From: Chrysophaeum taylorii
Taxonomy: Eukaryota; Sar; Pelagophyceae; Pelagomonadales; Pelagomonadaceae
Assembly (NCBI GenBank): GCA_029834535.1
Contig: JAQMWT010000594.1
Span: forward strand, 62,001-126,000
Length of the DNA: 64,000 nt
Direction of reading: 5' to 3'
In this document: positions 1,204 to 58,125 of the stretch, piece by piece
Layout of the letters: each line of letters starts with the position of its first letter
How positions within the stretch are numbered: the first letter of the stretch is position 1
Notes under the pieces: generated by a model
Database searches by the model: none
Told to the model about the DNA's origin: nothing
The model's input: only the letters and a program-made list of their open reading frames with translations
Made by a program: the position numbers and the translations under genes

Positions 1204-3876
1204 ATGCCGCCGAGGCAAGGGGAGGCGTCGCCCAGTCGGACGAGCGTGCGGAAGCGGGTCTGGCGGGAGGGGTCGTGGAGTCCATGGATGTGGTGCGAGA
1301 TGGGGAGGAGTGGGGTCGTCGAGCTGAAACTCCAGCGCGGCGGCAAGATCACGGTGCACCGCGACTACTTTGAGGAGGGTCCGCGGACGCAGGTGCTGCG
1401 GGAGCTCGAGGCGTGTGGGCTGTTTCGGCAGTACAAGTTTGGCAACGTCCCCGAGCCGCGGTTGCACGTGCTGCTCGCGCCTTCTTCGAGGTCGGAGAAC
1501 TTGTCGTACCAGTATCACGGCGTGACGATGGCAGCGCGGCCGCTCGAGGCAGTCCCGTTGCTCGAGGCCCTCGCGGGGGTGACGTCGTCGCGGTTCGACG
1601 GGGCGGAGTGGAACGTAGGCGTCGACGTCGTGTGCTACCGCGACGGAAAGGACTCGTGCGGCTGGCACGCGGACGACACGCAGGGCGAGCGGCTGGTGGT
1701 GTGCGTGGTCCTCGAAAGCGACGGAGGGTTGCGCAAGGTGTGCGTCCGTCCCAAGCAGCCCACCACCGCGAAGAAAAAGGGGTGGAACGGGTCGTCGCCT
1801 TCGCGAAAAAAGAAGCGGCGCGCCTCGGCTCACGCCGGCGAGGCGCCTCTGGTCGACGGCGACGAAGAGCTCGAGATGTGGATTGGCTCGGGCGACGCGT
1901 ACGCCATGGACCGCGGCGTGCAACTCGGATACGAGCATGCGGTCCCGAAGCGAGCCCCCCGCGAAGCGGTCGAGGGCCGGAGGATGGTCGTGATCATGCG
2001 GTCGGGCGACGCGAGGATATCGCCCGAGTCGGCCGACTCGGGCGAGCCGGCGGCAACGCTCGCGCCGCCCAAGCGCCGCGACGCCGAGGACCCAATCATC
2101 GGCCACGTCGCGGGGATCCGCGAGGCCGTCACTGTCGATGGCGTCGACGCGGCCGCCGTCTACTCGCGCGAGGAGCTCGTAGCCAAGGGCGCTCACGCGT
2201 CGACGCAGCGAGGCGTCGGCGGCACGGCCGCGCGCGGCGCCGAGAGCATCGTCGTGAGCCGCCAGTCCCCCGATCTCCGCGAGGCCGACGGCCTCTGGTG
2301 GCTGCGCTACACCTCGACGCGCCGCCAGGGCGCCGGCGCGCTCTGGCGGAGCGCCGAGCGCTCGGAGCGCGTTCGCGTCTTCCGATCCTCCTCGCTCGCC
2401 TCGAAATGGGCGCCTCCCTGTCCCGCCTCGCCGAACGGCCACGCCTACGTCGCCGCCGCGTACCGCTACGATGGCCTCTACGAGGTCGCGGCGGCCTGGG
2501 ACGCCGCCGGGGCGCCGGCCGTCGTCGAGCCGCCCGCGCTGGACGACGACCTCGACGCCGCCTACACGTTCCGCCTCGTGCGCTGCGACGGCGCGCCCAA
2601 CGCCGCGTCCAACGCAGACTTCTCGAAGGCCCTCGCCGGTAACCTTTGCGTCCCGGCCGACGACGTCGACGTCTCGCTGCCGCCCATGCGCGCGGCGGCC
2701 TGCGGGGTGACGAAAGTCGACGACTCGCGCGACCTCGTCGACCGACGCGCCGCCGTCGCCAGGTCCCTCGCCGACCTCGTCGCGCTCGTGGTCGCCAACG
2801 AGAGCGGTTGGTTTTCCGCGACGCTCGCGCCCCAACTGCCGCCAAAGAAACGACGACGAAGAAGGCCCGCCGACGAGCTCACGATTATTCCCGAGAATCC
2901 CGAGATTGCCGAACTCGCGACGGCCTGCGCGTTCGCCCGATGGCACGCGCATCGCAAGCTGTACTGGAGGTTCGACAGGCTGACGCGCTCCTGCCCCGGC
3001 CCATCGCTGATCGAGGACTCCAAACAAAAACCAGCGCGTTGCCGCGTCGACTTGCTGTCGGACGTGCTCGACGCGACGTCGGACGACGCGCTGCGCGCGA
3101 TGGTCGCGGACGCCAAGTCGCGCTCGATCGAGCGCGCGATGGCCGAGGCCCTCGCAAAGCGCGAAAAGCCCGCCGACGAACTTGTCGATGCCGACGACCC
3201 GCGAGTTGCCGCGCGCGACCGACGCTGTGACCTGTGCGGCGGCGACGAACGCGAGGACGACATCCTCGCCTTTGGCAAGGGCTCCGTCGTCGCGTGCGTC
3301 CACCGCCAGTGCGCGGCGACCTCCTCCGAAGTCTACAGCAACGAGGCCGGCGACTATGTCAACGTCGTCGATGCCGTCAAGCGAGGCCGGCTCATCAAGT
3401 GCGCCCTCGACGACTGCGCGTGCCTCCCGAAGCGATCCGGAGCGACGGTCGGCTGCTGCAACAAGCGCTGTCGTCGAAGCTACCATTTCAAGTGCGCCAT
3501 CGCGACCAACTGGCACTTTGGCTGCAATCAAACCTTTTTTTGCGACGCCCACCGGGGGGGCTTGGACCACGACCCCGACGACCTCGAGTGGTGGCACTTT
3601 GACTGTCCGTGCGGCATCGTCCAACCAAACTACGACGACGGCGAGGACATGTGCCAATGCCCCAGGTGCTCGGCCTGGCAGCACGAGCGCTGTGCCCAGC
3701 GTTCATCTCCCCCCTCGGATCGTCCCTTCCAACACCTTTTAGAATCGGGTGACTACGCGTGCGCTCGCTGTCTCGCCGCCGCCGCCGATCCTGCCCCTGC
3801 CCCCGGGGATAATGTGGTGGTGGAACCGAACAAACAACACCCGCCGCTCGAATCCTCCGCCCTCCCTGGGCACTAG
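1204..3876 (+). CDS. AlkB-like 2OG-Fe(II) dioxygenase fused to SRA/YDG domain and two PHD-type zinc fingers
   Basis: This intronless 890-residue protein has at least four modules. Residues about 60-265 are an AlkB-like double-stranded beta-helix: H155 and D157 in GWHADD, H245 in YEHAVPK and R260 in GRRMVVIMR match the iron and 2-oxoglutarate ligands (HxD...H...R). Residues about 298-500 resemble SRA/SAD: IIGHVAGI, AESIVVS and the YDG signature in YRYDGLYEV (422-424). These domains bind hemimethylated or modified cytosine. Residues about 675-795 hold an extended PHD (CDLCGGDE...CVHRQC...CCNKRCRRSYHFKC...FFCDAHR). A final PHD sits at about 801-873 (CPCG...CPRCSAWQHERC...CARC). A plausible nuclear role is demethylation or oxidation of modified DNA bases at chromatin sites read by SRA and PHD. 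Domain calls are from motifs; substrate is inferred. The ATG at 1204 is the first in frame. Confidence 0.85.
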   Translation: MPPRQGEASPSRTSVRKRVWREGSWSPWMWCEMGRSGVVELKLQRGGKITVHRDYFEEGPRTQVLRELEACGLFRQYKFGNVPEPRLHVLLAPSSRSENLSYQYHGVTMAARPLEAVPLLEALAGVTSSRFDGAEWNVGVDVVCYRDGKDSCGWHADDTQGERLVVCVVLESDGGLRKVCVRPKQPTTAKKKGWNGSSPSRKKKRRASAHAGEAPLVDGDEELEMWIGSGDAYAMDRGVQLGYEHAVPKRAPREAVEGRRMVVIMRSGDARISPESADSGEPAATLAPPKRRDAEDPIIGHVAGIREAVTVDGVDAAAVYSREELVAKGAHASTQRGVGGTAARGAESIVVSRQSPDLREADGLWWLRYTSTRRQGAGALWRSAERSERVRVFRSSSLASKWAPPCPASPNGHAYVAAAYRYDGLYEVAAAWDAAGAPAVVEPPALDDDLDAAYTFRLVRCDGAPNAASNADFSKALAGNLCVPADDVDVSLPPMRAAACGVTKVDDSRDLVDRRAAVARSLADLVALVVANESGWFSATLAPQLPPKKRRRRRPADELTIIPENPEIAELATACAFARWHAHRKLYWRFDRLTRSCPGPSLIEDSKQKPARCRVDLLSDVLDATSDDALRAMVADAKSRSIERAMAEALAKREKPADELVDADDPRVAARDRRCDLCGGDEREDDILAFGKGSVVACVHRQCAATSSEVYSNEAGDYVNVVDAVKRGRLIKCALDDCACLPKRSGATVGCCNKRCRRSYHFKCAIATNWHFGCNQTFFCDAHRGGLDHDPDDLEWWHFDCPCGIVQPNYDDGEDMCQCPRCSAWQHERCAQRSSPPSDRPFQHLLESGDYACARCLAAAADPAPAPGDNVVVEPNKQHPPLESSALPGH

Positions 3877-5970: not shown

Positions 5971-6298
5971 AAGTATCCCTGGCGGCGTCGTCATCGATCG
6001 ACGTTTTCTCTCTCACGTCACGTCGTCGCTACAGAGGGGAGAGAGAGCGCGTTGTGTTGTTGATTTTTGGCGTTTAGAGAGAAGAGGAGGGGGTAGACAA
6101 CAACAGACAGCAGTCGACATTTAAAGACAGACAGACAGACAGACCCGGGTTATTTATTTTTTTTTCCAACAACACACACACACACACCCTTTATTATTTT
6201 CTTTCCCAAATTGAGTTCCGTTTAAAAAAAGTGACAGTTAGCAAACGTGAAAAGAAGGTGGTGGGTTGCCGCGTGTGGTGGTGTTGACGTCTCGCAGG
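5971..6298. other. Intergenic interval with microsatellites
   Basis: This 328-bp gap holds (AGAC)n near 6123-6144, a T-run near 6155, and (AC)n near 6171-6187, then a purine-rich leader before the MAP65 start. I see no gene. Confidence 0.7.
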
Positions 6299-7920
6299 AT
6301 GAAGGCGGCGAGCAAGGAGGTGGAGCAGGTGCACGCGCTCAAGCTGACGAGCGAGACCGGCGGACTACTGTCGTCCGCGTCGAAACTGACTCTGTCGGCG
6401 TCCAAGCAGCGGTCCCGGAACACGTCGTTCGTGGGTGAGTGCGAGCTCGTGCGGGAAGCGCAGCTGCAGCTGATGGAGAAGATCGACATCGACATCAAGC
6501 ACGTGGTGAGATCGCTCGAGGCGATCTGGAACGAGGTCGGGTACTCGGACGAGGAGCGGGGCCTCCAGATGGACAAGCTGAGCGACGAGCTGACGCAGAC
6601 GTTGCGCGCCAAGCTCGCGCAGGAGGTCGAAGTGCGGGACGTGTTCAAGAAGGACATCGAGACCAAGGTGCGCGAATGCGAGCAGCTCGCGGGCGCGCTG
6701 GGGTACGACCTCGAGGCCCTCGAGGCGACGACAAAACAAGTACGCGAGTTCCGGCTCTCGCACGGCCTCATGCGGTTGGAGGAGGAGCAGGGCCGGTTGG
6801 AGGCGCTCAAGGCCGAGCGCGTCGCCAAGCTCGAGCCCCGGCGCTTGGCGATCGTCGAGCTCGCCGCGCGCCTCGAGCACCGTCTCGACCACAAGTTCTC
6901 GGTATTGGGCGATACGGACCTGGGCGACTCGCGCCTGCGCGCCCTCGACGCCAAGCTCAACGAGCTCCGCGGGATCGAGGCCCTGCGCACGGCCGAGGTT
7001 GCCGCCTACGACACCCAGAGCCGTGCGCTGGTGCGGGAGCTCGAGGACGACGAGGAGGACGCCGCCGCCTTTGAGGCGGACGCGACGCCCGGCGACGTGT
7101 CGCTCTCGGCCCTCGACGGCGCCAAGGCACGCCTCGCGGCCCTCCGGGACGAAAAGGCCGCGCGCCTGTGCCGCCTCAGCACCCTCGGCGACCAGATATC
7201 GCTCCTCTGGGAGCGCCTCGACGTCGACGCCGAGTCCCAGCGCCGGTTCCGGGCATTGTGCCGCGAGTCGACGATCAAAATGAGAACATTTCGTCTCGGC
7301 GAGGCCGAGCTCGCCAAGCTCAAGGCCGAGCTCAAGGACCGCGTCGGGGATCTCGTCGCCGCGCGCCGCCAGCGTATGACCGAACTCTGGGACGAGATGA
7401 ACGTCGCCGCCGACGAGCGATCGCGCTTCGCTCCGTTCTTTGCCGACGATTCCCTCGACGAGAACGCCCTCGCCGAGCACGAAGATATGCTGGCCAAGCT
7501 CGAGGCGCGACGAGAGGCCCTCCAACCCCTCCTGCGCCTCGTCGAGCGCCGCGAGGAACTCCTCGATGAACGCGAAAAAATCGAAAAGCTCCAGGCCGAC
7601 CCCACCCGCCTCACGAGGCGCGGTCCCGGCGCTCACGCCGAAAGAAAGTACGAGATGGAGGCCGAGCGCCGCCTCAAGCAACTCCCAAAAATCACAGAAA
7701 AACTCATCGCCCTCATTCGCGACTGGGAAGCCAAGGAAGGTCCATTCACATGGCGCGGTTCGAGCTACCTTGTTCGCATCACCGAGACAGACGCCGCCTG
7801 GAATTCCCACAAGCAACATCTCAAGGCCCTCGCCCAAGCCAAGAAAGAAAACATCCTCAACGGTCCGTCCTTTTGCTTCTTTCCCCCTTGACCCTTCTTC
7901 GCACAGGCATTCCTACCTAG
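6299..7920 (+). CDS. MAP65/Ase1/PRC1-family microtubule-associated protein (two exons)
   Basis: The protein is almost entirely helical and has the order expected of the MAP65/Ase1/PRC1 family. A dimerising coiled coil comes first (VEQVHALKLTSE...). Spectrin-like helices follow (IWNEVGYSDEERGLQMDKL, IKMRTFRLGEAELAKLK, LWDEMNVAADERSRF). The conserved C-terminal microtubule-binding segment comes last (RKYEMEAERRLKQLPKITEK, IRDWEAKEGPFTWRGSSYL). The family cross-links antiparallel microtubules in the spindle midzone or phragmoplast. The ATG at 6299 is the first in frame. The frame would otherwise run to 7891, but a GT..AG intron of 44 bp (7863-7906) restores a short terminal exon ending G-I-P-T-stop at 7920; this choice rests on splice consensus and on the intron size typical of the window. 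Confidence 0.85.
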
Positions 7921-8463: not shown

Positions 8464-11400
8464 ATGGCTGCGAGACTGCGAAAGTCGAGGGTAATACGCG
8501 GGGCCAAGACGAAAGAAAGGCTTGTCACTCGCGAGATCTGGCTCTCGGATTGCGAAAAATCGCTCCGCAAGCTGCTGGCGTCGAAGGGTCACTTCGTCGA
8601 GGCGTTCAAGGGCTTCCTCAAGGTCGAGCACGAAGACGAGGAGCTGATCTTTTATCTCGAGGCCCAGGCGATGACCAAGATAACGGACGAGGCGCGCGCC
8701 CTCGAGGCTGCGTCGCAACTTTACGAGACTTATCTCGCCGAATTGGGCGACGGCATCGGCCAGCAAGACCGCACTCGCGCGACGCAGCGCCTCTGGACCA
8801 AGGAGCGCAAGCGCTACGCGCTGAGCAATGACGACGCCGACCTTAAAAAGCGGCGACGTCTCGTGGTAAACGAGGCAGACGTGGCACTTAGGTCGCTAGC
8901 TTTCGACCAGTTTCCTCGATTTTTGCGGTCCAAGAAGTTCGGCGATGTCCACGATGATATGGTCGAGAAGAGCACTACTTCCGGCTCGTCGTTGTCGACG
9001 ACTGTCGAGGCCGTGGGATCGATGTTGCCGCGGACCGCCGACGAGTGGCTCGACGCCTTCGTTTGCCTCGCCGACACGTGGCCAGCGAGTATCGTCGTCT
9101 CGGACATGACCATCGCCGGGGCTCCGATGGTGTACGTCAACACTGAGTTCAGCGAAGTCACTGGGTACCCTCGAGACGAGTCTGTTGGGAGAAACTGCCG
9201 TTTCCTTCAGGGGCCCGACACCGAACCGGAGGCAATCGAAGTTATCCAGCGAACGCTGGCCGCGGGAAGGGATTGCCAGGTGTTGCTCACGAACTATCGC
9301 AAAAATGGCGACAAGTTTAGAAATCTGCTGTCCATGAGGCCAATTTTCGACGCCGAAGGTCTCTACAGATTCGTAATTGGCGTTCAACTCGAGGTAAACG
9401 ACCTCGATCCAGAACTCGGCTCGAAACTCGTTCGAGCCCAGAAACTGCTGCGGCTCGTGCCACCAAAGTTATTGGAACTCAAATCAAATCCTGAAGCAGT
9501 CAAGCGGGGGTGCCGCGCGCCACCTGTCGCGGCTGCTGCTGCTGCTGCTGCTGACGGTGGTCCCGCGGCGGAAGGTTTAAACCGGGCCACCGCCAGCCTC
9601 GAGCCGGCCGATCCTTCTTTCGAGAAAGCGAGCGTCGTCAAAGACGAAACCGAGTGGGCAGACACCGTCTTTGCGCTCACTCGCATTGCTTGGTTGAGGC
9701 GGGGACAAGCGCTCGTTAAGGACCTGCTTGGCTGCTGCTGTTGCTGCCAAGGCGCCCTCGACATCGTCATGGATTTCGCGAGGCGCAACTGCCATCCTTT
9801 TGTCGCCGCGTACGCCGCGTTTGTCGCCGAGGCTACGGACGCATTGCGAGACGAGAACCAACTGTTTCGAGTGCACCTCAGGATGCACAAAAACCCGTTC
9901 TATTATTGCACGAAGACCGACATCAAGGAGGGCGAGATCCACTCTCAGGACTGGACGAGGGTGCGCAAAGAAGTCGAGAGAGCCCTCGAGGTCGCGAGCC
10001 AATTCCTCGCCGAGCATTTGCTCCCTCGATTGTTGCGCTCGAAAGCCGGCCCCGCTCTTGTGCATTTCGTTCGAAAGTTGGAGCTCGAGAACGCCATTTC
10101 GAGCCAGTGCAACGCGCGGACGTGCGCCTACGGCGTTGCGCTCGCGGAGGAACCCGAACAACACTGGCTTCACATGTTCGCCTCGATCACCGCGGAATTT
10201 GACCACATCGGCGTCGTCGTCTCAGACATGCGCGTGCCCGGGATTCCTCTCGCGCACGTCAACGACGAGGGCTTCTGCCGCGTAACGGGCTTTGACGGAC
10301 CAGCTCAGATTGGAAAAAAATGTTCGAGCGTGCTCCAAGGCCCGGAGACCGAAGATTACCTGGTGGAGCAGATCTGTCATGCGCTGCGAGACGCTCAGCC
10401 GTTAGCGATAAAGATCACCAACTACAAGGAGAACCAGCAGAAATTTCAGTGCTTTCTTACGCTCCACCCTGTTTTTGGCGTGGACGGCGAGTACTTGTAT
10501 CAGGTCGGAACCCAAGTGGACATGTCTGCCCCGCGTTCCGAAGTGTACGACCAGTTGGTAGAGCTCGAACAACTCCTCCAACTCTTGCCATCGAGCATTT
10601 TGTGCACGAACGAGTCTGATCTCGAGCGTCAGATCATTCCGAGTGGGGTCGACGACGACGACGGTGGGTCGTTTGATGCGCATGTTCAGCGAACTATGAT
10701 CGACGAATCGTCGCTGCCGCCGTCATCTCGGAAGAATGAGGGCAAGACCCACACTGGTGTTGATTTACGTGCGATTGGAGAAGCTGTCTGGCTGGTCGAC
10801 GCCGAACAGTCGCTTCAAGTCATCCTTGATTCGGACATCGGGCGGCAGGCCTTTGAAGCGTTTTTAGACGCTGAAGACAACCAACGACCGGCGCTCGATT
10901 TTTACCTGGCGATCGAGAGGCTAGCCAACATTCCGTGCGGGCAAAGGGACCACCAAGCGGAACAGACGATGAAAGAATACAACATAAGCATAGCTTGGAC
11001 GAAGAAGTCTCGCATCGCCAAGGCAATGAACGGTTGCGATACCACCAATGCGACCGTGATAGCTCAGAACAACAGCACGGCGAGCACCGAGTCTGTTTGG
11101 CGCCAATACGCAGCCAGCGCGCTCCAGAACTACTGCGGGGTTACCTACGAGCAGGCAAAGAGCGAAGCAAGAGATACACTTCGAATGCTCGCTGTCGACG
11201 CTTTCCCCCGCTTCATGCGCACTAAAAACGCTGCTCGAGTCATGGATGCACTTGTAGAGAACGCGCGTCCATCGACAACGAGACTCATGACCAGCTTGGC
11301 AAGAAAAGCGAGCGCGGCGCTGCCACAAGACGCCAACGAGTGGCTGCGCGCGTTCGCCACAATTGCGGAAACATGGCCGGCGTGCATCGTCATTGCCGAC

Positions 11401-14400
11401 ATGTCCATCGCTGGAGCGCCGATGATATACGTCAATCCTGAATTTTGCAGGGTGACGGAGTACTCTTTCGAGGAGTGCGCGGGACGTAACTGCCGCTTCC
11501 TTCAAGGCCCCGAAACAGAACCAGAATCGGTGGCGGTCATCCAACGAGCTCTCTCTGGCGCTCAGAGCTGCCACGTTCTCATAACAAACTACCGCAAGAG
11601 CGGCGCCAAATTTAAGAATTTGCTCACGATGAAGCCGGTGTTCGACACCGAAGGTGAGATCGAATTCGTTGCGGTTCGTGCCATTTTTGGTTTGCCATGC
11701 GCAGGCACTTACCGCTTTGTTATTGGCGTTCAATTCGAGGTCAAGAGCGACATGGGTGTCTCGTCTCGTCTTAGCAACCTCGAAAAGCTTCTGCAACTGC
11801 TTCCTCGCGAGCTGCCAATGACCTCTTCCAACAACGACACTAAAGGTCGTGAACCGGCAAACTCCGAGATAGAATATGGTAAGGAGCTCCCTGTGGAATA
11901 TTTGCCGCAACGGTTTGCATTTACCAAGCTTAAGTGGCTTCTCACATCAGAAAAGACATTCAACGCGATTCTCGCAGACGATCTCGGCGTCACCGCTCTT
12001 ACACGGTGTATCGAGAGCGCGAACTCTCCCTTGGCACGCTGCGCACTGGACTTTTGCAAGACTGCTCAGGAGCTTCTCTCATTGGCCGGCACCAAACAAC
12101 AGCGGAAAGCGAAGATGCTCCACAAGCGCATGATAAACAACTCACTTTATTATTGCACAACGACGGAGATTCCGCTGGGTGAAATCGAGGCCGTCGACTG
12201 GTCCAAGGTCATTGATGCCATTAAATATTGGAGTATATTGTGGGCAACGATCTTACGTCGCTGTTATTTCAGACAGCTTTTGAACTCCACGCTCGGCGCG
12301 GACCTCTTTATCGCGCTGCGTGAACGCGAACGAGGTGGCGACGTTCGCGCTTTGGCGACGGTGTGCTGTAACTCAGACGCAATCGGCGAGGATCTGTGGC
12401 TAAATATGATCCAGGAAGTGAGCACGGTACTCGAAGACATTGGGCTTTGCGTCTCTGACGTTCGCATTCCCGGTGTTCCGTTGACGTTTATTGGAACGAG
12501 CTTTAAGGCAGTCACCGGCTACGGCATGGAGCAACTAAATCATTCGTGCAGATTCCTTCAGAGAGCCGAATCGGAGGCAGTCGTCGTCAAAGAAATCCGG
12601 GAGGCAATACGAGCGGCGAGGCCAATATTCGTGAAAATACGCAACTACAAGAAGGACGGAACTGCGTTTCAGAACCTGTTAACGCTCAATCCGGTTTTCA
12701 CGCGTGATGGAGCGTACTGCTTTCAGGTTGGGACACAGCTCAAAAATGGGGCGGAGACGTCGGAAGATTCGTCAGTCCATTTGGGCCGTCTTTTGCGCCT
12801 CGCTGACATCTGCCGCTTGCTCCCAAACCGGGTTGGCAGGCTCATGCCCATTATGGAACAGCGGGCCCATAACCCAAAGCGGCTGAATTCTCGGTCAACG
12901 CACGATGCGTTTAGCGATCAAGACACTTCCTCATCATCCATGAGACCTCATGGTGCCAGTAGTCCGCTGTTTGTCCATGCGGCAACAGCCCCTGCGACCA
13001 CGCCTGTTGCGCATGAAGTACCGCAACACAAGGGAACAGCCGCTCCCTCAGACTTCATGAGCAACATGAGTAGGCCACTGCTTCCCGAGAGCACGGCGTC
13101 GACTCGGATCACGACTGGCGATCGTAGCAACAAGCCCGTAGCAACCCACATTATGCCGCGGGTGAGCCATGACGAGCCTTTGTCGTCAGAGAGCCGTGGA
13201 TGTAAGACATTCACGCCGAATACTTGCGCGACGAACCATGCCCACCGGCGCAGTATGTGCCGAACCATGTCCACCCTCACCGAGTCTGAAGGGGACCCGC
13301 ACTTTGCTGATATCCGCGCGACGACACGAGAATCACAAACCGTCGGTCAAGATGGCAACGCGGGCGAGCCTTCATTTGAGCCACGACCGCCAGGCCCTGG
13401 CTGCTCACAGCGTCCGACAACAGCGCATCCTCGAAGAAGCGGAAGCAGTTTGGGTGACTCCCTTGTTTGCAAGCGGCCGAAGTCTGCGCTCTTGCCTAGA
13501 TCCCAGCTCATGACGGCAAAGTCATCGTGCGCTGTTGACGAGGATCAGCGTATCGCGAAGTTGATGGCGAAGCACGGTGGCGAAGAAATGAAACGCGTGC
13601 TGATCTCCGGAAAGTCGGCCGTAGTCAAGATGACGCGCGCCATAGGTTCAATGCTCGAAGACGAACTTAATTGCTTTCGTTCCGTTTTTGAAGGTGGAGG
13701 TAGTGTCGCCGGCATGTCTCGCAGCGGCGGCTCGCAAGTCGGAGATGCCGTGGCGATTCGAGGTGGAACCATGGACCTCAAGACTCTCAAGAACGAGCGC
13801 GCACTCTTTCAACGACTCGGCTTCGTTGAACACGTCTGCCAGCTCGACGAGCGGATAGACTGCATCGCAAAGAGGCGGCGAGGCGACCTGGCTCAAAAAA
13901 TCCGAGAGACCATGGACCGACGCCTGCGCTACTTGAAGGCACAACAACGAAGACGAATGCAAGCGCTCAAGCTCGAACTCGACCAGCAGCTCGAGTCGAC
14001 GCGCCGGCAACACGCGATAAATGTGGAAAAACTCGCCGAGACCCATCATCAACAACGAAAGGACTTTTTGAGTCGCACCCTTCGCGTTGCGACAGGCGAC
14101 GAGGTTGATTCGACACGATGTGGCTGCACCAATCCTTTCGCGTGTAAACACAACAGAACCGCCAGCTATCGGCTTCGCAAGACCAATCCGATGGTCGTCA
14201 AATATCGCGCCGCGGCGAAGCGACTTCAGGACAGCCGACGTATTGCTGACGCCATGGAGTATAGCGCCAAGGCCGACGAAATCGACAACATCGAGCGCCT
14301 GGAATGGACCAGACACGTCGAGATGAGCGCCACCACAGCACAGCTCCCCAGACTCATCGAAGCTCAAGAGCGAGCGAGCCAGAGCCTCCAGACGAAGCAT

Positions 14401-14976
14401 GACGCTATCATCAAGACGATGCAGCAGCGACGCGACGAAAGGCTCGCGGGATTGCAGAAAGTTCTGCACTGCGAACTCGAAAAGGTCACGCGACGCATGA
14501 AGCAACAGGTCGTCGACGCCGAGAATGGTAGAGCCGTCACTATTGCTACGAAAGAGGCCACCCCCCCGTCGATGAGCTCGGTGGTCTCCGGACGAAGTCC
14601 CCCCAACACTTGCGTGACCATGTCCGACAACATAGTCCGCGAGCTTGGATGGATAGGTGCGAATATCGACGAGCTCTTTTCCGAGTCGTTGTTCGTGGAT
14701 TCTCCTAACTTGCGAAACAGCGTTAGAGGTGAGACTTTCGATGGTCTTCCGAACGTGAGAAACAGCTTGGGTGAAGAAACTTTTGCCGATCCTCCTCCGA
14801 ACGTGAGGAGGAGAAGACATAGCGCGGGCGACGACGGCTTACGGGAAGTGGTCCTAAGACGAGATCTACCGACGAAAGAGCCGGAGGAGGCCCGGCGAGA
14901 CATCGCGAAATATCGCCCCTGGGAGCAGCCAGAGGTCAAAGGGCTCGACAATAGCAAACCGATCTTGCTGGTTTGA
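8464..14976 (+). CDS. Giant photoreceptor with four RGS-LOV pairs and a C-terminal coiled coil
   Basis: One open frame encodes about 2150 residues (2170 unspliced). Four RGS-like helical domains alternate with four LOV domains. In unspliced numbering, RGS-A is about 27-160, LOV1 200-312, RGS-B 396-546, LOV2 576-690, RGS-C 776-932, LOV3 970-1094, RGS-D 1153-1290 and LOV4 1320-1426. LOV1 and LOV3 carry the canonical photoactive motif GRNCRFLQG (Cys245, Cys1010) and FVIGVQ. LOV2 has GKKCSSVLQG (Cys620) and LOV4 has NHSCRFLQ (Cys1362). All four keep the Cys and the late Gln. LOV domains bind flavin and form a blue-light Cys adduct; RGS domains act on G-alpha or membranes. A Ser/Thr/Pro linker (about 1430-1690) leads to a long basic coiled coil (about 1690-2020) and a short C-terminal repeat (NVRNSLGEETF). 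A 51-bp in-frame intron interrupts LOV3. Confidence 0.9.
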   Translation: MAARLRKSRVIRGAKTKERLVTREIWLSDCEKSLRKLLASKGHFVEAFKGFLKVEHEDEELIFYLEAQAMTKITDEARALEAASQLYETYLAELGDGIGQQDRTRATQRLWTKERKRYALSNDDADLKKRRRLVVNEADVALRSLAFDQFPRFLRSKKFGDVHDDMVEKSTTSGSSLSTTVEAVGSMLPRTADEWLDAFVCLADTWPASIVVSDMTIAGAPMVYVNTEFSEVTGYPRDESVGRNCRFLQGPDTEPEAIEVIQRTLAAGRDCQVLLTNYRKNGDKFRNLLSMRPIFDAEGLYRFVIGVQLEVNDLDPELGSKLVRAQKLLRLVPPKLLELKSNPEAVKRGCRAPPVAAAAAAAADGGPAAEGLNRATASLEPADPSFEKASVVKDETEWADTVFALTRIAWLRRGQALVKDLLGCCCCCQGALDIVMDFARRNCHPFVAAYAAFVAEATDALRDENQLFRVHLRMHKNPFYYCTKTDIKEGEIHSQDWTRVRKEVERALEVASQFLAEHLLPRLLRSKAGPALVHFVRKLELENAISSQCNARTCAYGVALAEEPEQHWLHMFASITAEFDHIGVVVSDMRVPGIPLAHVNDEGFCRVTGFDGPAQIGKKCSSVLQGPETEDYLVEQICHALRDAQPLAIKITNYKENQQKFQCFLTLHPVFGVDGEYLYQVGTQVDMSAPRSEVYDQLVELEQLLQLLPSSILCTNESDLERQIIPSGVDDDDGGSFDAHVQRTMIDESSLPPSSRKNEGKTHTGVDLRAIGEAVWLVDAEQSLQVILDSDIGRQAFEAFLDAEDNQRPALDFYLAIERLANIPCGQRDHQAEQTMKEYNISIAWTKKSRIAKAMNGCDTTNATVIAQNNSTASTESVWRQYAASALQNYCGVTYEQAKSEARDTLRMLAVDAFPRFMRTKNAARVMDALVENARPSTTRLMTSLARKASAALPQDANEWLRAFATIAETWPACIVIADMSIAGAPMIYVNPEFCRVTEYSFEECAGRNCRFLQGPETEPESVAVIQRALSGAQSCHVLITNYRKSGAKFKNLLTMKPVFDTEGEIEFVAVRAIFGLPCAGTYRFVIGVQFEVKSDMGVSSRLSNLEKLLQLLPRELPMTSSNNDTKGREPANSEIEYGKELPVEYLPQRFAFTKLKWLLTSEKTFNAILADDLGVTALTRCIESANSPLARCALDFCKTAQELLSLAGTKQQRKAKMLHKRMINNSLYYCTTTEIPLGEIEAVDWSKVIDAIKYWSILWATILRRCYFRQLLNSTLGADLFIALRERERGGDVRALATVCCNSDAIGEDLWLNMIQEVSTVLEDIGLCVSDVRIPGVPLTFIGTSFKAVTGYGMEQLNHSCRFLQRAESEAVVVKEIREAIRAARPIFVKIRNYKKDGTAFQNLLTLNPVFTRDGAYCFQVGTQLKNGAETSEDSSVHLGRLLRLADICRLLPNRVGRLMPIMEQRAHNPKRLNSRSTHDAFSDQDTSSSSMRPHGASSPLFVHAATAPATTPVAHEVPQHKGTAAPSDFMSNMSRPLLPESTASTRITTGDRSNKPVATHIMPRVSHDEPLSSESRGCKTFTPNTCATNHAHRRSMCRTMSTLTESEGDPHFADIRATTRESQTVGQDGNAGEPSFEPRPPGPGCSQRPTTAHPRRSGSSLGDSLVCKRPKSALLPRSQLMTAKSSCAVDEDQRIAKLMAKHGGEEMKRVLISGKSAVVKMTRAIGSMLEDELNCFRSVFEGGGSVAGMSRSGGSQVGDAVAIRGGTMDLKTLKNERALFQRLGFVEHVCQLDERIDCIAKRRRGDLAQKIRETMDRRLRYLKAQQRRRMQALKLELDQQLESTRRQHAINVEKLAETHHQQRKDFLSRTLRVATGDEVDSTRCGCTNPFACKHNRTASYRLRKTNPMVVKYRAAAKRLQDSRRIADAMEYSAKADEIDNIERLEWTRHVEMSATTAQLPRLIEAQERASQSLQTKHDAIIKTMQQRRDERLAGLQKVLHCELEKVTRRMKQQVVDAENGRAVTIATKEATPPSMSSVVSGRSPPNTCVTMSDNIVRELGWIGANIDELFSESLFVDSPNLRNSVRGETFDGLPNVRNSLGEETFADPPPNVRRRRHSAGDDGLREVVLRRDLPTKEPEEARRDIAKYRPWEQPEVKGLDNSKPILLV
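11654..11704 (+). other. In-frame 51-bp intron inside LOV3
   Basis: The sequence begins GTGAGATCG and ends ATGCGCAG, has no stop, and is a multiple of three, so the frame reads through it. Removing it turns the LOV3 core from DTEG-(17 extra residues)-TYRFVIGVQ into DTEGTYRFVIGVQ, matching LOV1 (DAEGLYRFVIGVQ). Confidence 0.88.
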
Positions 14977-15084: not shown

Positions 15085-17742
15085 CTAGGTGGCCCGAGGG
15101 GGTGCGGACACGGGCCGTTGTCGCTGCAGCTGCTCGGTAAAAGGGAACGGCATGAGGCGCCGCGGAAGGTCGACGCAGCGTCGACCTAGTCTCGCGGCCG
15201 GCCTTTTCGGCGACGAAGCGGCTCCAGCTTTGAGCGCGGATGCTGACTTACTCTCGCGTAGTTTCCCGAGGTCGAGCTCGGTCTGGTACGGCCCGATTCG
15301 AGACGTGGATTTGCTGGCTCCCAGCGTAATCCGGCACGCAGCGGGAGTATCACCCGCGGTAGTCGCCAGCCGCGAGTCTCGACTTTTTTTGACGCGACTG
15401 GGGGGCGAGTCCACCAACGCGAGCGCGTCGTCTTCTTGTGCTCGGCGCTTGGGAGTGGGAGCGCGGAAGTAGCCCGGCAGCTGCACGCGTTTCTCAGCGG
15501 TGGTCCAGACGCGTTTCACGTTTCTCGTCCTCCGCGGAGGAGGCCGCCCGTCGTCGCTCGAAGAAGATCGGCGGCGAAAGGCCCGGGGCGATAGATGGTT
15601 TTCCCGAGTCATCATCAGCGTCGGTGCCTCTCGAGGCTCCGAATCGAGAGCATCCATGATCATCAAGACGCGCGGCGAGTTAATGATCCCAGCAGGCACG
15701 CGCCGGACGTCGCGCGCCGACGGGATCGTCGTCTTCGTTTCGGTCCGCGGCACCGCGCGGCGGGCGGAATCGCTGCTGCGCGCGATGGTCACGAGACGAA
15801 GGGTTCAAACCACACCGAGGAAACTGCGAGCGGCAAGGGCTCACATTTGGAGGATTCGCCACAATATAATACGGAGCCATCGGGATTGCGTCGCGGAAGC
15901 CGCGCGTCGAGGCGGCAGGGACGCCGAAGAACGCTTCGACACCGCCCTCCTGCTCTGGATGTGACGAGATTCGAGGAGAGTACTCACAGCAACAAATCGA
16001 AATCGATCGAGCGCCGGTGAGAGACGCGCCGTTGAGATGAATCGAACAAAGTCGACGTCATCGAGGACGGTTGTCGGCGGGAGCAACCTCTTCTTGGGCT
16101 TTGGTTCCAACTCGCGCCCGCGGCCCGATACGTGCAGTTCATCTTCTTCGAGCGGACTCGAGGGAAGCGCATGACAGCTCACGTCTCTTGGCGGTTGGCG
16201 CTGTCGATCGACTGTAGTTCGCACAGGAGGAGGAGGAATAGACTCAAACGCGAGCGTCGCCTTTGAGACTGGCAGGCAAGCGTGAGTCGTTCGCCGCGGC
16301 GCTGACGATTCGAATCGGCGAGGTCTTGTTGCATTGGTGACCGTAGAGCGAGGTGCCGCTGCTGCGGTGCGACGTCGAGCTGGGGAAGCCAACACCGCCA
16401 CTGGTCTATTCTTCTTCTTCTTCTCCATCTTCTTATTCTTCTTTTTCTTGTTCGATACGAGGCCCGAAAGCGGCGGCGGCGGAGGCGGCTCTCCCGCTGC
16501 TTTCTGTTGCTCAAGTGCCACGCTGCCGCGGACAACGCCGTTCGAAGACCGCTCGATACCCCCGGTCATCCCGCCGCGCAAGCTGCGACGAGAGCCAGAC
16601 GACCGTCGGGGCACGAGCCTGGTCACGAGGTTTGCGCCGCGCATTAACGAGGACTGGAAGTGGCTCTCTCGTTTCTTCGAGCCCGTCGGCGGCACCGGTT
16701 CGAGGTTATCGGTCCATTTTTCCGGATCGATGCGCCATCGCAGGTCGACTCCCGATGAATCCTTGTTAAGTTGTGCGACACGATCGATGAGAAAGCACAA
16801 AAATTTCGCCCGCGCGTCCGCCACGCGGTCGACGGGCGTTCGGTGGTGGTGGTGGTGGTGCTCGGAAAGATTATTTTTTTTCGCAGTATCGTCGTTCTCC
16901 GCGCTCCAGGCATCGGCTAACTGGTACATGGACAAGCCAAAAAGCTGCCTGTCCAGGAAGTGCCTCCCGCGCGAGTCGACCTCCCACTCGCGTTCGACAA
17001 CTGGGAGCCAGTCGTTTCGATCTTTTGGTTGCTCGCCCTCGGTCCTTAGAGCGTCGTACATATTCCAGTGGAGGTTGAGATATTCGTCCTTTGTGATCAC
17101 GCCGTTGTCGTCAGCGTCGACGATGTGCCAAAAGGCCTCGAGATGGGCCATGACGATGGGATCGAACCGCGCCGAGTCGCGGCACAGCAACGCGACGTTG
17201 TTATGCGGGTCGGCGCTCGTCTCCCTGCGCACGACGCGCTCGAGGCCAGGGTCGGGTCGCTGGAACAGAAACTCGAAGAGTTCGTCGGAATCAACCGTAC
17301 CGCTCCGGTCCGCGTCGAGCTCCTCGACGAGCATCGTCACTTCGGCCTGGCGGAGCTGGACGCCGAGACGACGGATCGCGGCGTCGAGTTCGGTCGCGTC
17401 GACGTCCCCGCTCTCGTTGGTGTCGACCTCGCGCAGCAGCTGGTTCATGCCCCAGTCGCGCTCCCGCATGACACGAACCATCTCGTGTCGCGCGCGCTCG
17501 AGGCGGTACTCGGCATCGAAAAACGACCGGAGTTCGTGGAAGAGCGTCAGGGGCTGGCCATCTCGATCGTCAAACGACCAACGCCTTCGAATCCGGGCCT
17601 CGCCATAGGGTGCGAGATAGGGCTCCTTTGATGCTTGGGGAGACCCCCATTTTTTTTTTCCGTCGATCCACGCGTCCTCGCCGCGCGTAGTAGTAGTCCC
17701 TCTTGGGCTCAGGCCACTGTTGTTGTTGTTGTACACCACCAT
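15085..17742 (-). CDS. EF-hand calcium-binding protein with long basic low-complexity tail
   Basis: From the ATG at 17742 the protein has three canonical EF-hand loops: DTNESGDVDATE (about residues 107-118), DADRSGTVDSDE (143-154) and DADDNGVITKDE (209-220), each with acidic residues at positions 1, 3 and 12. The remaining part is basic, Ser/Pro/Lys-rich and probably disordered (for example KKKKNKKMEKKKK). The frame meets a stop at about 15841, but the same frame reopens. A GT..AG intron of 69 bp (15844-15776) would remove the stop and join the two parts into about 862 residues ending at 15085. A further 33-bp in-frame GT..AG segment (15987-15955) may also be spliced. Calcium-dependent regulation is inferred from the loops only. 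The 5' end is divergent from ARP1, 45 bp away. Confidence 0.72.
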
Positions 17743-17787
17743 GAGTGAGTAGTTCCTGAGGGTAAGGTAGGTGTCGCCCGCCCGCGG
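17743..17787. promoter_or_regulatory. 45-bp divergent start-codon interval (EF-hand / ARP1)
   Basis: Both start codons flank only 45 bp, so a shared bidirectional promoter with very short leaders, or promoters inside the neighbouring gene, must exist. No core element is evident. Confidence 0.5.
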
Positions 17788-19053
17788 ATGAACACGGCAA
17801 TTTTGAGCCAGCCCGTAGTCGTGGACAACGGGACGGGCGTGATCAAGGCCGGGATGGCCGGCGGGGACCGGCCGAGCGTGATCTTTCCCTCGACAGTGGG
17901 GCGACCCAAGCACGTGCGCATGATGCCCGGGGGCGCCCTCGAGGGCGCCGACGTTGTTGTCGGAAAGCGCGCGCTCCAGCACCGCGGCGCCCTCGTGCTG
18001 CGGCACCCGATGGCACGCGGAATGGTCGATGACTGGAGCGACATGGAGCGCGTGTGGGCTCACGCGTACGACGGGTTGAGCGTCTCGAGCGACGCGCACC
18101 CGCTGCTGCTGACCGAGGCGCCGCTGAACGCCGCGCGGCACCGCGAGCGGTGCGCCGAGGTGCTCTTCGAGCACTTTAACGTGCCGGCGTTGTTCCTGGC
18201 CCCCCAGGCGATCCTGAGCCTCTACGCCTCGGGCCGCACGACGGGCCTCGTCCTCGACGTCGGCGACGGCGTCTCTCACGCGGTCCCCGTCTACGAGGGT
18301 TTTGCCGTCAAGCACGCTGTCGCGCGCATGGATGTGGCCGGCCGCGACGTCACCGACCGCCTCGCACTTCTCATGCGCCGCGCGGGCTGCGCTTTTGCGA
18401 CGAGCGCTGAATACGACGTCTGCCGGGAGATTAAGGAGAAGCGGTGCTACGTCGCGCTCGAACCAAACAAGGACGAGCACGCCCTCGCCTCGTCCCTCGC
18501 GGCGCAGGCCCCCGCGCTCGACAAGCCCAACACTCCCGACGCGACGCCGCGGGCCCATGAGCTCCCCGACGGCTCGAGGGTGATCCTCGGCCCGGAGCGC
18601 TTCCGGGCGCCCGAGGTCCTCTTCGACCCTGCCATCGTCGGCTCGGAGGACGCCGGCGTCGCCGACGTGGTGGCCTTGGCGGCAAAAAAGTCTGACCTCG
18701 ATCTCCGCGCGGCCCTCTGCTCCCAGATCGTCCTCGCCGGAGGCTCGACCCTCTTTCCGGGCTTTGGTGACCGCCTCCTCAGACAACTCAAGCTCGCGCT
18801 CCCCCAGCACACCAAAATCAAAATCCACGTCCGTTGTCCTGGTTATTTATTGTGTGACCTATCCCGCCGTAGGCGCCGCCCGAGCGCATGCTGTCCACGT
18901 GGATTGGCGGCTCGATCCTCGCGTCCCTCGCGACCTTCAAGTCCATGTGGATCCTCAGAGCCGAGTGAGCGTCGCGACTTTGCTTCGTGCGCACGCCCCC
19001 GCAGGTACGAGGAGCACGGCGCGCGGATCTTTTCTTCCCGCGCCCTCGCGTAA
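17788..19053 (+). CDS. ARP1: ARP1 (centractin), actin-related subunit of dynactin
   Basis: Three exons (17788-18828, 18873-18964, 19005-19053) give a 393-residue actin fold, close to the family's usual length of about 375. It has the nucleotide loop [13 protein letters not shown], then [42 protein letters not shown], the second phosphate loop [32 protein letters not shown], and after splicing the actin C-terminus [30 protein letters not shown] and GDRLL favour ARP1 over conventional actin, where GDGVTH and PGIADRM would be expected. Dynactin ARP1 forms the short filament that couples dynein to cargo. The two introns are 44 bp (18829-18872, GTCCGT..GTAG) and 40 bp (18965-19004, GTGAGC..GCAG); both are needed to recover the conserved tail. 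The sequence is divergent, so another ARP is possible but less likely. Confidence 0.87.
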
Positions 19054-45568: not shown

Positions 45569-48500
45569 ATGATTTATCTGCCCACAAAAATCTCAGCCAC
45601 GCAAGCAGCACGTTCTTGCGAGTGTAATCATGAGTGTTCTCAGAATCGTCCAGTACCATTCCAACCAATACTTTACGCTTTGCGAACTGGGCTTGCCCCC
45701 GACACGATGCGATACGCCTGGCGTCCTCTCGTGCTCGCGTTTGTGGGCTTGTTGTGGCGCTACGGCTCGCATTCGAATCCCGTTAGACCCTGTCGCGGAG
45801 GCGCGTGCGCGAGTGCGACAGTGAATATAAGTGAGGAGAGCAACAACCGAGGATCATCACCTTGGGGCTACCAGCAGGGATTCAACGAGGCGGAAGCTAC
45901 CTTGTTGGGTGACGGGGGCGCCGGCGGTGTGATCGACGTGATCTTGATGACTGACCGGATTGCGTCGTCTAGCGCAGTCTTGGCATCCGCGTGCGTCAAT
46001 ACTGGAGCGCCGTTGAGATTTCACCTCGTGGTGCCCGACTCGGAGGTCGCCGAGGCACGCGCCAAAATCATGCCGGCCAAGTGCGCGGGAGCGGAGTGGC
46101 GGCTCCTCGCGGAGAGCGCAGTCGTGCAGAGCATACGCGACTTCGGGCTCGCAATCACATGGGAGATCGAGGTGCCGCGGACCAAGTTAAGCGTCCACGT
46201 GCCGCCGTGGGACCATTCGACCAAGCACAACTCCGTCTTCAACTGCCTGCGGTTCTACTTGCCGCGGCTGCCCGAGTTCGCCGACCTCGAATCGATCATC
46301 TTTATGGACGATGACATCATCGTCCAGGGCGATCTTGCGCGACTCTGGGCATTCCCACTTGAAAAGCCTCTGACCGCAGGCTGCCTAAACTGGATATGGA
46401 ATTCGTGCGCGAGAATGGAGGCCTTCCTCGACCTGTCGTACGCCGAGGTTCCCTATCTGGGCTTCGGCGCGCTGCCGCGTGGCGAAGAGGGATCGGTCGC
46501 GAACCTCACGTGCGCGTCCGACGACCAGAGGGAGTGCGCACCCGCTGGCTTCTTCACGTCGCTCGCCGAGACGTCGGCGGCAATTCAGGGCTGTCGCCTC
46601 GATATCGAATGGCTGCGCAGCAAGCGCGCCTGGAACTTTGGGCTCAACAAGTTCAACCTGACCGCGTGGCGCGCCGCGAATGTGACCGAGCGCTACGTCG
46701 CCTGGATTATGGCCAACAAAGAATTTGGCTGGTTTCCGACGACGAGTCTTGGGTACGGCCTCGGCATTGCTTTTCTTACGCTCGCCGACGACGTCATCTG
46801 CACGGACGACGTCGGCATGTCTGTGCTGCACGGACTCGGTTTTGTTGAGCCCGACGATCTTAACCTCAGCGGTATCCCGCTCGACACGATCGGTGAATTC
46901 TATTCGTTGCACTGGAACGGGGATCGCAAGCCGTACTCGCCTACCGACGCGATTCCCGAATATACAGACTATTTCCTCGTGCACACGCCTACCATTAGGA
47001 AGAGCGGGGACGAGGCCCATCGCAGGTCGGCAACTGTCACCGGCAACTCGAGGTCGTTCGTTGTTTGGACCGCGCCCCGAAGTGGGTCGGAATGGTTCAT
47101 GAACATACTCGACCAGCATTCGAACGTTTGCGCATCCGGCGAAGTTCACAGCAGTGGACGCGGTTGGCCGCGCGAATCACTGCTCCCGTCAAACTTGTTG
47201 GGGGACGACCAGGTGGAGGTTTGCCATCCCAAGGCGGTGTGTCACTGGGCGGTTACTTCGCGCCTGCTCGAGAAACTCATTTTGGAAGCTGGGCACAACC
47301 GTACGATCCCGTCCGCGTGTGACGCGCTCCCCAGTCGGGGGCTTGGCAGATATGAAGACCATTACGGAAATCACCTCGGCTCGTTGTGCGCAATATTAGG
47401 GCAAGCCGTGCCGGCCGCGGCGGCCGCTGTCGATGCACGCGGCCGTGAGGAGTCGTGGCTCGCCCAGGTGATGCGGGAGTCCTTCCGTATCTTCGTCTCC
47501 CGTGCCCTTAGTGGTGCTGGTTCATCTCGTGTGTTCAGCTCGCAGCCACATCAACGTAACGCAAGTAGTAGTGGCTGGAGAGGCCGCACACTGTCTGGGG
47601 GTCGTCGACCAGAGCCTCTTTGGATGCCGTGCACCTGCCCACACAATACGACAACGACGGGCACCAAGGTCATGAACGTCTGGCTGGATACCACCCGCGG
47701 CGCGCGAGATGTTTCGCCCTCGAGAGAGAGATATGATTTCTATTTGTTGACCGGTATTCTTGAGGAGCTTGGCTCGAAGATCATCGTCCTCGATCGCGAG
47801 AATCTGTGCGTCTTGCCTTACCTCGCGTTGTCACGTCGTAACCTCAGGTTCGCGGCCTACGTGAGCCTACGCGTTGCCGAGTTGACGCAGAGTTTTCACT
47901 GCCGAGGAAATTCATGCCGCCACGAAGGACGTGTGCGCATCAACGTCAAGCAGCTCCTGGCGTTCGTTCGTAACAACTTGCGCCAACGCGAGAAACGGGA
48001 TGCTCTTCTGGCGACCACGAACTTTGAAGTGTTACGCGTCCAATACGAATCCTGCGTCGAAAACAAACCGGAATGCTTCCGAGACGTGCTCGCCTTCCTC
48101 GCTGTCGACAACAACGAACGTGTGCTAGACGAACTTTTTGCCAGTTCCTCGGACGTGGTCTCCCAAGATGTTCGAACCATGGTGGAGCGCGTGTTGAATT
48201 TTGATGTGGTCGCCAGGGCACTCGTCGACGCTGGTATGGGGTATTATTTGACGACCGACGAAATCAACAAAGTGGTGAATGCTACGTCGAACTTTGGTGA
48301 CGTCGAGGTCAGCAGGATGCCGCCGTCGTCCGAGGAGCTTGGTGATGTCCATGTTCTCATCATGTCTGATCGAGCGCCAGCCCTCGCAGCCACGTTGTCA
48401 TCGATGTGTTCCGCGGCGAAAAATATCGCGACTCTCGTGGTTCACCTGGTGGTGCCGAACAACTCGACTGATCCGGAAATTTGGGATGTCGGTTCTGCTG

Positions 48501-57500: not shown

Positions 57501-58125
57501 CTTCGTCATCTTGCCCGTCGAAATTCTGTTGTTCGATTATTTCATTCCGAGCCTGCTGTTGGAACGGCTCAAGCAGTACCAAGACCCGACGAAATTGCAC
57601 AGGTTCCCATACAAGACCAAGTTGCCCGAGTCGCCCATGTTTTACCTCCTTCTCATGATGCCCCAAGACTACGCCGACACGCAAATTGGCATTTATGCGA
57701 TGCAACGTGCTCTAGGGTCGCCAGTCGACACGACGTCCACGGCATTCTACGAGGACGAGTTGGAGGCGATCTACCACGACCAAAACTGGCGCGCGCGCGC
57801 TGGGACTCGTCTTGGACTTGCTGCCTCTTCGTGGATCATGCGCGTGCCCGAAACGCTGCACGAACTCGCGTTTGAAGAAGTTCTTATCGCAGCCGTCTTG
57901 TTCAGTAAAATCATGGGCAGTCTCCCGAATAGTGTTGGCAATTCGGAAGGCGATCATGGTGAAGTGCTGGCCATGGCCGTTGTGGTTGTCGTCTTTGCTG
58001 GCATCGCTCTTCTCATCACCTCGATGATCGCGTTGTGCAATTGCTTTGAACAGCTCTTTCTCGAACGCGGGACGCGCGACGCCGCCGAGTCGCCGAGAGC
58101 GACGCCGCACGCCCTCCCTCCCTGA
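45569..58125 (+). CDS. Giant chimeric surface protein: GT8 / sulfotransferase-like / GT8 / Pro-rich stalk / REJ-like ectodomain / multi-pass membrane region
   Basis: Two long frames join through a short intron to about 4,140 residues. Residues about 125-470 are a GT8-like glycosyltransferase ([16 protein letters not shown], Asp247-249; [21 protein letters not shown]). About 495-850 is sulfotransferase-like ([20 protein letters not shown]). About 925-1290 is a second GT8 ([16 protein letters not shown], Asp1059-1061; [10 protein letters not shown]). About 1325-2006 is a Pro/Thr/Ser stalk. After the junction come a PSxxPSxxP linker, REJ/PKD-like beta modules ([12 protein letters not shown]), Cys-rich sequence before the first span (about 55,450-55,530), further spans near 55,970, 57,360, 57,460 and 57,970, and acidic/basic cytosolic loops. 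The junction is within 51589-51710: either 51589-51710 (122 bp) or 51633-51670 (38 bp) preserves frame. A signal anchor follows Met47 (45707), the likelier start. Two separate genes remain possible. Confidence 0.7.
49545..51588 (+). repeat. Coding minisatellite of Pro-rich stalk, with 99-bp higher-order unit
   Basis: Basic units of about 33 bp encode PSPTxAPSGPT-type undecapeptides. Up to about 50,220 the repeat is [13 protein letters not shown]-like; after that it is [14 protein letters not shown]-like. From about 50,780 to 51,400 three units ([33 protein letters not shown]) form a 99-bp higher-order repeat iterated about six times with almost no divergence, implying recent expansion or homogenisation. 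Confidence 0.9.

Follow-up and report, generated by a model that had tools for sequence, protein, structure and literature searches.

The 64,000-nucleotide stretch analysed here (the window; Chrysophaeum taylorii contig JAQMWT010000594.1, positions 62,001 to 126,000) belongs to a genome of 70.8 Mb in 697 contigs and contains, on its plus strand, one open frame of 2170 amino acids (aa) that begins with an ATG at 8464 and whose stop codon ends at 14976. At the base composition of the region, 2170 open codons have a log10 probability of about -36.7 per start. The encoded protein comprises, in this order, RGS-A, LOV1, RGS-B, LOV2, RGS-C, LOV3, RGS-D, LOV4, a linker and a conserved C-terminal tail (Table 1). 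A Pfam scan of the frame matched PAS_9 in four stretches (E = 3.1e-46) and RGS in two stretches (E = 1.7e-15), and an NCBIfam scan returned nine families on the LOV stretches, all of PAS/LOV or sensor-kinase types by name. The first-pass annotation had described one chain with four RGS-LOV pairs in alternation, and this arrangement was recovered, the LOV domains, RGS-A and RGS-C by sequence, RGS-D by predicted fold and RGS-B by homology; its coordinates (8464..12760) span the four pairs but omit the last 735 aa.

Table 1. Features of the RGS-LOV frame in the window, and its eight-pair paralog on contig C524 (pLDDT, predicted local distance difference test).
Feature	Position	Strand	Basis
Whole frame, four RGS-LOV pairs and C-terminal tail, helmchrome-type	8464..14976	+	single open frame, Pfam
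RGS-A (aa 22-168)	8527..8967	+	Pfam RGS 39.7 bits, cut-off 23.9; PDB RGS16 by phmmer, E 2.5e-5
LOV1 (aa 201-312), GRNCRFLQ	9064..9399	+	Pfam; flavin residues retained save Gln at the Arg467 position
RGS-B (aa 400-560), cryptic RGS-like helical domain	9661..10143	+	homology to RGS-D; nine model helices
LOV2 (aa 566-688), non-canonical, CSSVLQ, Cys at the Asn492 position	10159..10527	+	Pfam, alignment
RGS-C (aa 765-925)	10756..11238	+	Pfam RGS 31.9 bits, cut-off 23.9; 28% identity to RGS-A
LOV3, GRNCRFLQ, contains probable intron	11347..11743	+	Pfam, alignment
Probable 51-nucleotide in-frame intron, GTGAG...GCAG	11654..11704	+	removal restores LOV spacing of paralogs
RGS-D (aa 1147-1300), cryptic RGS-like domain	11902..12363	+	AlphaFold pLDDT 82; Foldseek
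LOV4 (aa 1308-1429), SCRFLQ, remaining flavin contacts canonical	12385..12750	+	Pfam, alignment
Linker, Pro/Gly/Ser-rich	12769..13767	+	composition
Conserved C-terminal tail, two charged helix-like stretches flanking CxC...CxHN	13768..14658	+	genome search, alignment
Paralog with eight RGS-LOV pairs and tail	C524:544125-555863	-	loci L009, L010, L011, L052, L053

LOV domains, RGS domains and tail

Among the best 60 of 154 phmmer matches in the PDB, LOV1 matched LOV chains of histidine kinases, EL222, aureochromes and phototropins with E-values down to 9.6e-26, and LOV structures ranked top among the best 50 Foldseek matches of a model of aa 20-735 (pLDDT 74, predicted template-modelling score (pTM) 0.49, 7-row alignment). 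The flavin pockets were compared using AsLOV2 numbering and the roles of Arg467, Asn492 and Gln513 in AsLOV2. The reactive Cys is present in 4 of 4 LOVs of the window protein; the contacts of LOV1 and LOV3 are canonical except at the Arg467 position, and those of LOV4 except for a Ser preceding the reactive Cys. The ten LOVs at odd positions of the RGS-LOV family in this genome (see below) retained the reactive Cys and the Arg after it in nine cases each, and both flavin Asn residues and the Gln513 equivalent in all ten, with Gln (7), Arg (2) or Ser (1) at the Arg467 position. The reactive Cys was likewise kept in 10 of the 11 even-position LOVs, with Arg after it in 2 of 11 and the second flavin Asn (Asn492) represented by Cys (8), Asn (2) or Leu (1). 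Three flavin sites are likely in the window protein and the fourth, in LOV2, is uncertain, which makes the four sites proposed at first reading doubtful. In the paralogs, the reactive Cys is replaced by Phe in the first even LOV of C484 (L043) and by Leu in the odd LOV of C166 (L045); since these LOVs lack it, parts of the family may have lost light sensing.

LOV3 contains 17 extra codons flanked by GTGAG and GCAG, and without them it is spaced like the other odd LOVs. In the C5 and C484 paralogs, LOVs with similarly sized GT-AG interruptions were read by eye, and the insert is a probable intron.

The RGS-C match covers the first half of the Pfam RGS profile only (positions 2-58 of 117), and 8 of the 10 A/C-type domains of the family matched this profile at E up to 1. 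Both RGS-A and RGS-C retain the later PRFL/PRFM segment. Structure prediction of an inter-LOV helical region, a check put forward with the first-pass annotation, gave for RGS-D a nine-helix AlphaFold model (pTM 0.75, 10-row alignment) for which ranks 1-32 of a Foldseek search of the PDB were all RGS or RGS-homology proteins (RGS16, RGS8, RGS17, RGS9, SNX25, Axin, GRK2), with weak E-values (0.09-0.58), target-normalised template-modelling scores up to 0.70 and root-mean-square deviations mostly of 5-7. We take RGS-D to be a divergent RGS fold, and RGS-B as well, by its homology to RGS-D (23% identity, compared with 11-18% across classes, in keeping with the likeness noted earlier) and by its nine helices inside the aa 20-735 model, no separate Foldseek search of RGS-B having been made. 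Nine of the 15 RGS matches in the genome lie outside RGS-LOV genes, on C570, C1, C379, C421, C675, C129, C96, C418 and C314.

Downstream of LOV4, no Pfam family was found above the cut-off between 12769 and 14973. The first-pass annotation had placed a long coiled coil here; what we found instead is a linker of about 330 aa followed by the two charged helix-like stretches on either side of a Cys-rich motif (no coiled-coil predictor was run). A search of the genome with the tail gave three matches, a lower bound, all in RGS-LOV genes: the window gene, C524 (45% identity) and C5 (25%). Against the PDB the tail gave one match, at E = 0.69. A CxC...CxHN motif was also seen by eye in the C-terminal part of the frame at 2930-7639 of C493 (L044), a contig that the tail search did not list.

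Paralogs and history of the repeats

A LOV search of the genome returned 30 matches, and six RGS-LOV loci were recognised: the window gene and those on C524, C484, C493, C166 and C5, with 2, 3 (C484), 4 or 8 recognisable LOVs per member. The C524 frame has 3923 codons (3913 aa counted from the first ATG). It contains eight LOV motifs, four Pfam RGS matches and four RGS-D-type matches, and its sole copy of the tail lies after pair eight; a single gene is therefore a better reading than two adjacent ones. Three LOVs were seen in C484, where the frames are interrupted, and two LOVs plus the tail in C5. C493 and C166 carry two LOVs each and a weak A-type domain (E = 3e-5 and 1e-6, custom profile), and no domain was detected preceding their second LOV. 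RGS-D-type domains gave eight matches in the genome (two in the window gene, four in C524 and two in C484), again a lower bound, all within the RGS-LOV family. Beyond this genome, 35 pattern matches in viral contigs included no relatives, and among at least 593 pattern stretches in prokaryote genomes 581 encode a relative (tblastn; loci not scanned for RGS); in 80 of the relatives listed, the matched query residues fell within 141-710, mostly from LOV1 to LOV2 and spanning RGS-B.

In 150-base steps (final three-base step excluded), the two four-pair units of C524 show 45-90% DNA identity except in a block of about 1.05 kb, RGS-3/LOV3 versus RGS-7/LOV7, where they are 97-100% identical. The near-identical block likely reflects recent gene conversion, and a local assembly error within it is still conceivable. 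That C524 is a doubled contig piece was ruled out by the 45-90% identity between the halves outside the block.

Within the window protein, LOV1 and LOV3 are 59% identical and LOV2 and LOV4 41%, compared with 31-37% between odd and even LOVs, which agrees with the pairwise likeness noted at first reading. In a LOV tree of 26 rows, for which a C5 LOV found in two pieces was joined and C356, C81 and C574 were excluded, the even LOVs form one group (support 99/96), and the aureochrome LOVs form a group with that of C122 (100/99) nested among the odd LOVs. The long branches of the tree meet at this latter placement, the root is a midpoint root only, and 10 of the 22 inner branches have support below 80. 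Window LOV2 groups with LOV2 and LOV6 of C524 (91/88, below the tool's mark), and, in keeping with gene conversion, LOV1/5 and LOV3/7 of C524 are near one another in the tree. The grouping of the even LOVs and the existence of paralogs with two LOVs uphold the duplication of a two-pair unit that had been suggested before, and the simplest reading of these relationships would be a two-pair ancestor that became a four-pair protein before the split between the window gene and C524, followed by a second doubling to eight in C524.

Nonsynonymous (dN) and synonymous (dS) divergence between the two halves of C524 was 0.008 and 0.89 for LOV1 versus LOV5 (dN/dS about 0.01), 0.125 and 0.88 for RGS1 versus RGS5 (0.14), 0.26 and 1.8 for RGS2 versus RGS6 (0.14) and 0.29 and 1.7 for RGS4 versus RGS8 (0.17). 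For the even LOVs the values were 0.16 and 3.7 (LOV2 versus LOV6) and 0.17 and 2.2 (LOV4 versus LOV8), with dN/dS of 0.04-0.08, where dS is at or near saturation and such high values are rough. A linker stretch lying partly in the converted block gave 0.20 and 0.71 (0.28), and RGS3 versus RGS7 and LOV3 versus LOV7, inside this block, are uninformative. Judged from these ratios, both the altered LOVs and the cryptic RGS domains of C524 are under constraint. Decay of the even LOVs and of the B/D-type RGS domains was rejected on this constraint, the evidence coming from C524 and not from the window gene.

Proposed function and alternatives

Helmchromes possess four LOV domains plus RGS domains; helmchrome of brown algae and other stramenopiles (published sequence CBJ26132.1) was reportedly treated by Fu et al. 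(Protist, 2014), and neither photochemical measurements nor G-protein assays are known to have been published for it. By domain composition the window protein is helmchrome-type: RGS and LOV domains occur in one polypeptide, there are several LOVs, and the host is a photosynthetic stramenopile. The eight-pair C524 paralog differs in exceeding the repeat number of helmchrome, and an eight-pair RGS-LOV form was not found in our literature search and is not known to us. Phototropins share the tandem LOVs on one chain, and their LOVs were among the PDB matches, but they combine two LOVs with a Ser/Thr kinase and lack RGS domains. Aureochromes are likewise ochrophyte LOV proteins, but have a single LOV with a DNA-binding bZIP; bZIP-LOV frames, whose basic region was recognised by eye, were found on C590, C126 and C38, and the host is therefore an ochrophyte. 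Fungal RGS-LOV proteins such as BcLOV4 resemble the window protein in having an RGS preceding the LOV and a hydrophobic stretch after it, but BcLOV4, as described in part of PMC8993538, contains one RGS and one LOV, and lacks the alternation of canonical and altered LOVs. The view that no proteins of this build were known had to be dropped, and with it the idea of a protein kind new to science: an excerpt of a 2024 commentary counts helmchromes, described as proteins of RGS-LOV type, among the light sensors of stramenopiles (PMC10967245, which cites Fu et al. 2015, Protoplasma), and passages of PMC5795050 present helmchrome as a putative photosensor of the brown-algal posterior flagellum. A term search of a review of algal photoreceptors (PMC12558739) did not find helmchrome named, and part of a raphidophyte transcriptome paper reports aureochromes (PMC6685483).

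The window protein is rather likely to be a helmchrome-type multi-LOV, multi-RGS receptor for blue light that works in the flagellum by way of G-protein signalling. The genome contains full-length Galpha matches on C244 and C350 and a third Galpha gene in exon pieces on C244 (1 of 14 control genomes gave a signal, below the cut-off); it also contains IFT46 (E = 1.5e-83), because of which flagella are likely. In the canonical LOVs (1 and 3, probably also 4), blue light would lead to a flavin-cysteine adduct, and the adduct would loosen the helix-like stretch after each LOV and so alter how the adjoining RGS domains are presented; part of PMC6798134 describes such loosening by light, of elements that pack against the sheet, for LOV receptors, RGS-LOV proteins included. 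In the window and C524 proteins, 10 of the 12 LOVs are followed by a hydrophobic stretch with LLP, LVP or MLP at its end, which could serve as a natural relay to the next RGS. In turn, the RGS domains would bind Galpha or let it go, or would modulate G-protein signalling in another way, and thereby change the flagellar beat, which would give the protein a role in phototaxis. The conserved tail would probably anchor the protein or drive oligomerisation.

Several observations weigh against this reading. Searched singly against Pfam, RGS-B and RGS-D gave no RGS match, so that the hidden Markov model check for PAS_9 and RGS suggested earlier recovered the four LOVs, RGS-A and RGS-C but not these two; none of the ten B/D-type family members matched Pfam RGS, the B/D-type profile had one PDB match, which was not an RGS (E = 1.1), and the fold match of RGS-D is weak, nothing in the PDB having been found by Foldseek at E <= 0.001. 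At the position of RGS4 Asn88, presumably the Asn that contacts the Galpha switch regions, alignments to RGS10 and RGS2 place Glu in RGS-A and Ala in RGS-C, and activity as a GTPase-activating protein (GAP) is therefore not assured. LOV2 has no Arg after its reactive Cys, has Cys for the second flavin Asn and carries a one-residue insertion in its motif; with several flavin-contact residues missing, four flavin sites are unproven. None of 200 bootstrap trees had the odd LOVs together on one side of a branch, and starred branches put the LOVs of the aureochromes and of C122 within the odd set, following C166 and C493; with the aureochromes nested there, odd and even LOVs may have had separate origins and not a single one inside the family.

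The main rival is membrane recruitment of the BcLOV4 type, which appears unlikely: the RGS domains would be dark-state caps and not GAPs, and light would free amphipathic post-LOV helices for anionic lipids. Passages of PMC8993538 indicate that in BcLOV4 the RGS seems to inhibit lipid binding and that a polybasic amphipathic post-LOV linker is thought to bind lipids, and both the hydrophobic stretch after 10 of 12 LOVs and the missing Galpha-contact Asn of RGS-A and RGS-C would suit this model, but the 45 residues after window LOVs 1-4 are not consistently basic (net charge +3, -6, -1 and +2) and the genome has Galpha genes. We regard as quite unlikely an RGS-LOV scaffold with a role outside the flagellum, for example in growth, in the movement of chloroplasts or in clock input; the six loci of the family would allow several roles and the flagellar location of the window protein is presumptive, but the published helmchrome is tied to the posterior flagellum in passages of PMC5795050, and IFT46 is present. 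That two or more genes, or a decaying gene, were read as one frame is most improbable, for although the LOV2 motif has its insertion and LOV3 a probable intron, the frame is single and without a stop, and C524 has the same alternation, with its tail only after pair eight, and constrained repeats.

Passages of PMC5795050 make helmchrome a candidate steering light sensor of brown-algal and other stramenopile swimmers. The two-, four- and eight-pair versions in one genome provide a natural series for the effect of repeat number, and the fact that canonical LOVs alternate with altered ones, each class being constrained in C524, suggests two roles within one chain. An unlikely extension, ventured here as speculation, is that successive doublings in this lineage took helmchrome from two pairs to four and then to eight, with a second LOV class (Cys kept, Asn mostly Cys) of different photochemistry alternating with the first, into a multi-photon sensor in which the count of excited LOVs sets the G-protein output. 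Because an RGS-LOV protein from fungi already serves in optogenetics (PMC8993538, in part), multi-pair versions are potentially useful there.

Neighbouring genes in the window

Upstream of the RGS-LOV gene, a frame at 6266-7891 (+) encodes a MAP65/ASE1 microtubule-associated protein, and a frame at 1204-3876 (+) combines a 2OG-Fe(II) oxygenase, an SRA domain and a PHD-like zinc domain (just below the cut-off), whose product is possibly a reader and eraser of modified DNA. An EF-hand frame at 15841-18828 (-) overlaps an actin-family frame at 17788-19053 (+) on the opposite strand, the EF-hand part lying outside the overlap. Two very long frames at 45569-51748 and 51646-58125 (+), overlapping by 103 bases, contain three glycosyltransferase-8 stretches in one and a REJ domain in the other. 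The GC skew at 50001-52000 is -0.353, the next strongest 2-kb step of the window being 0.140 in size.

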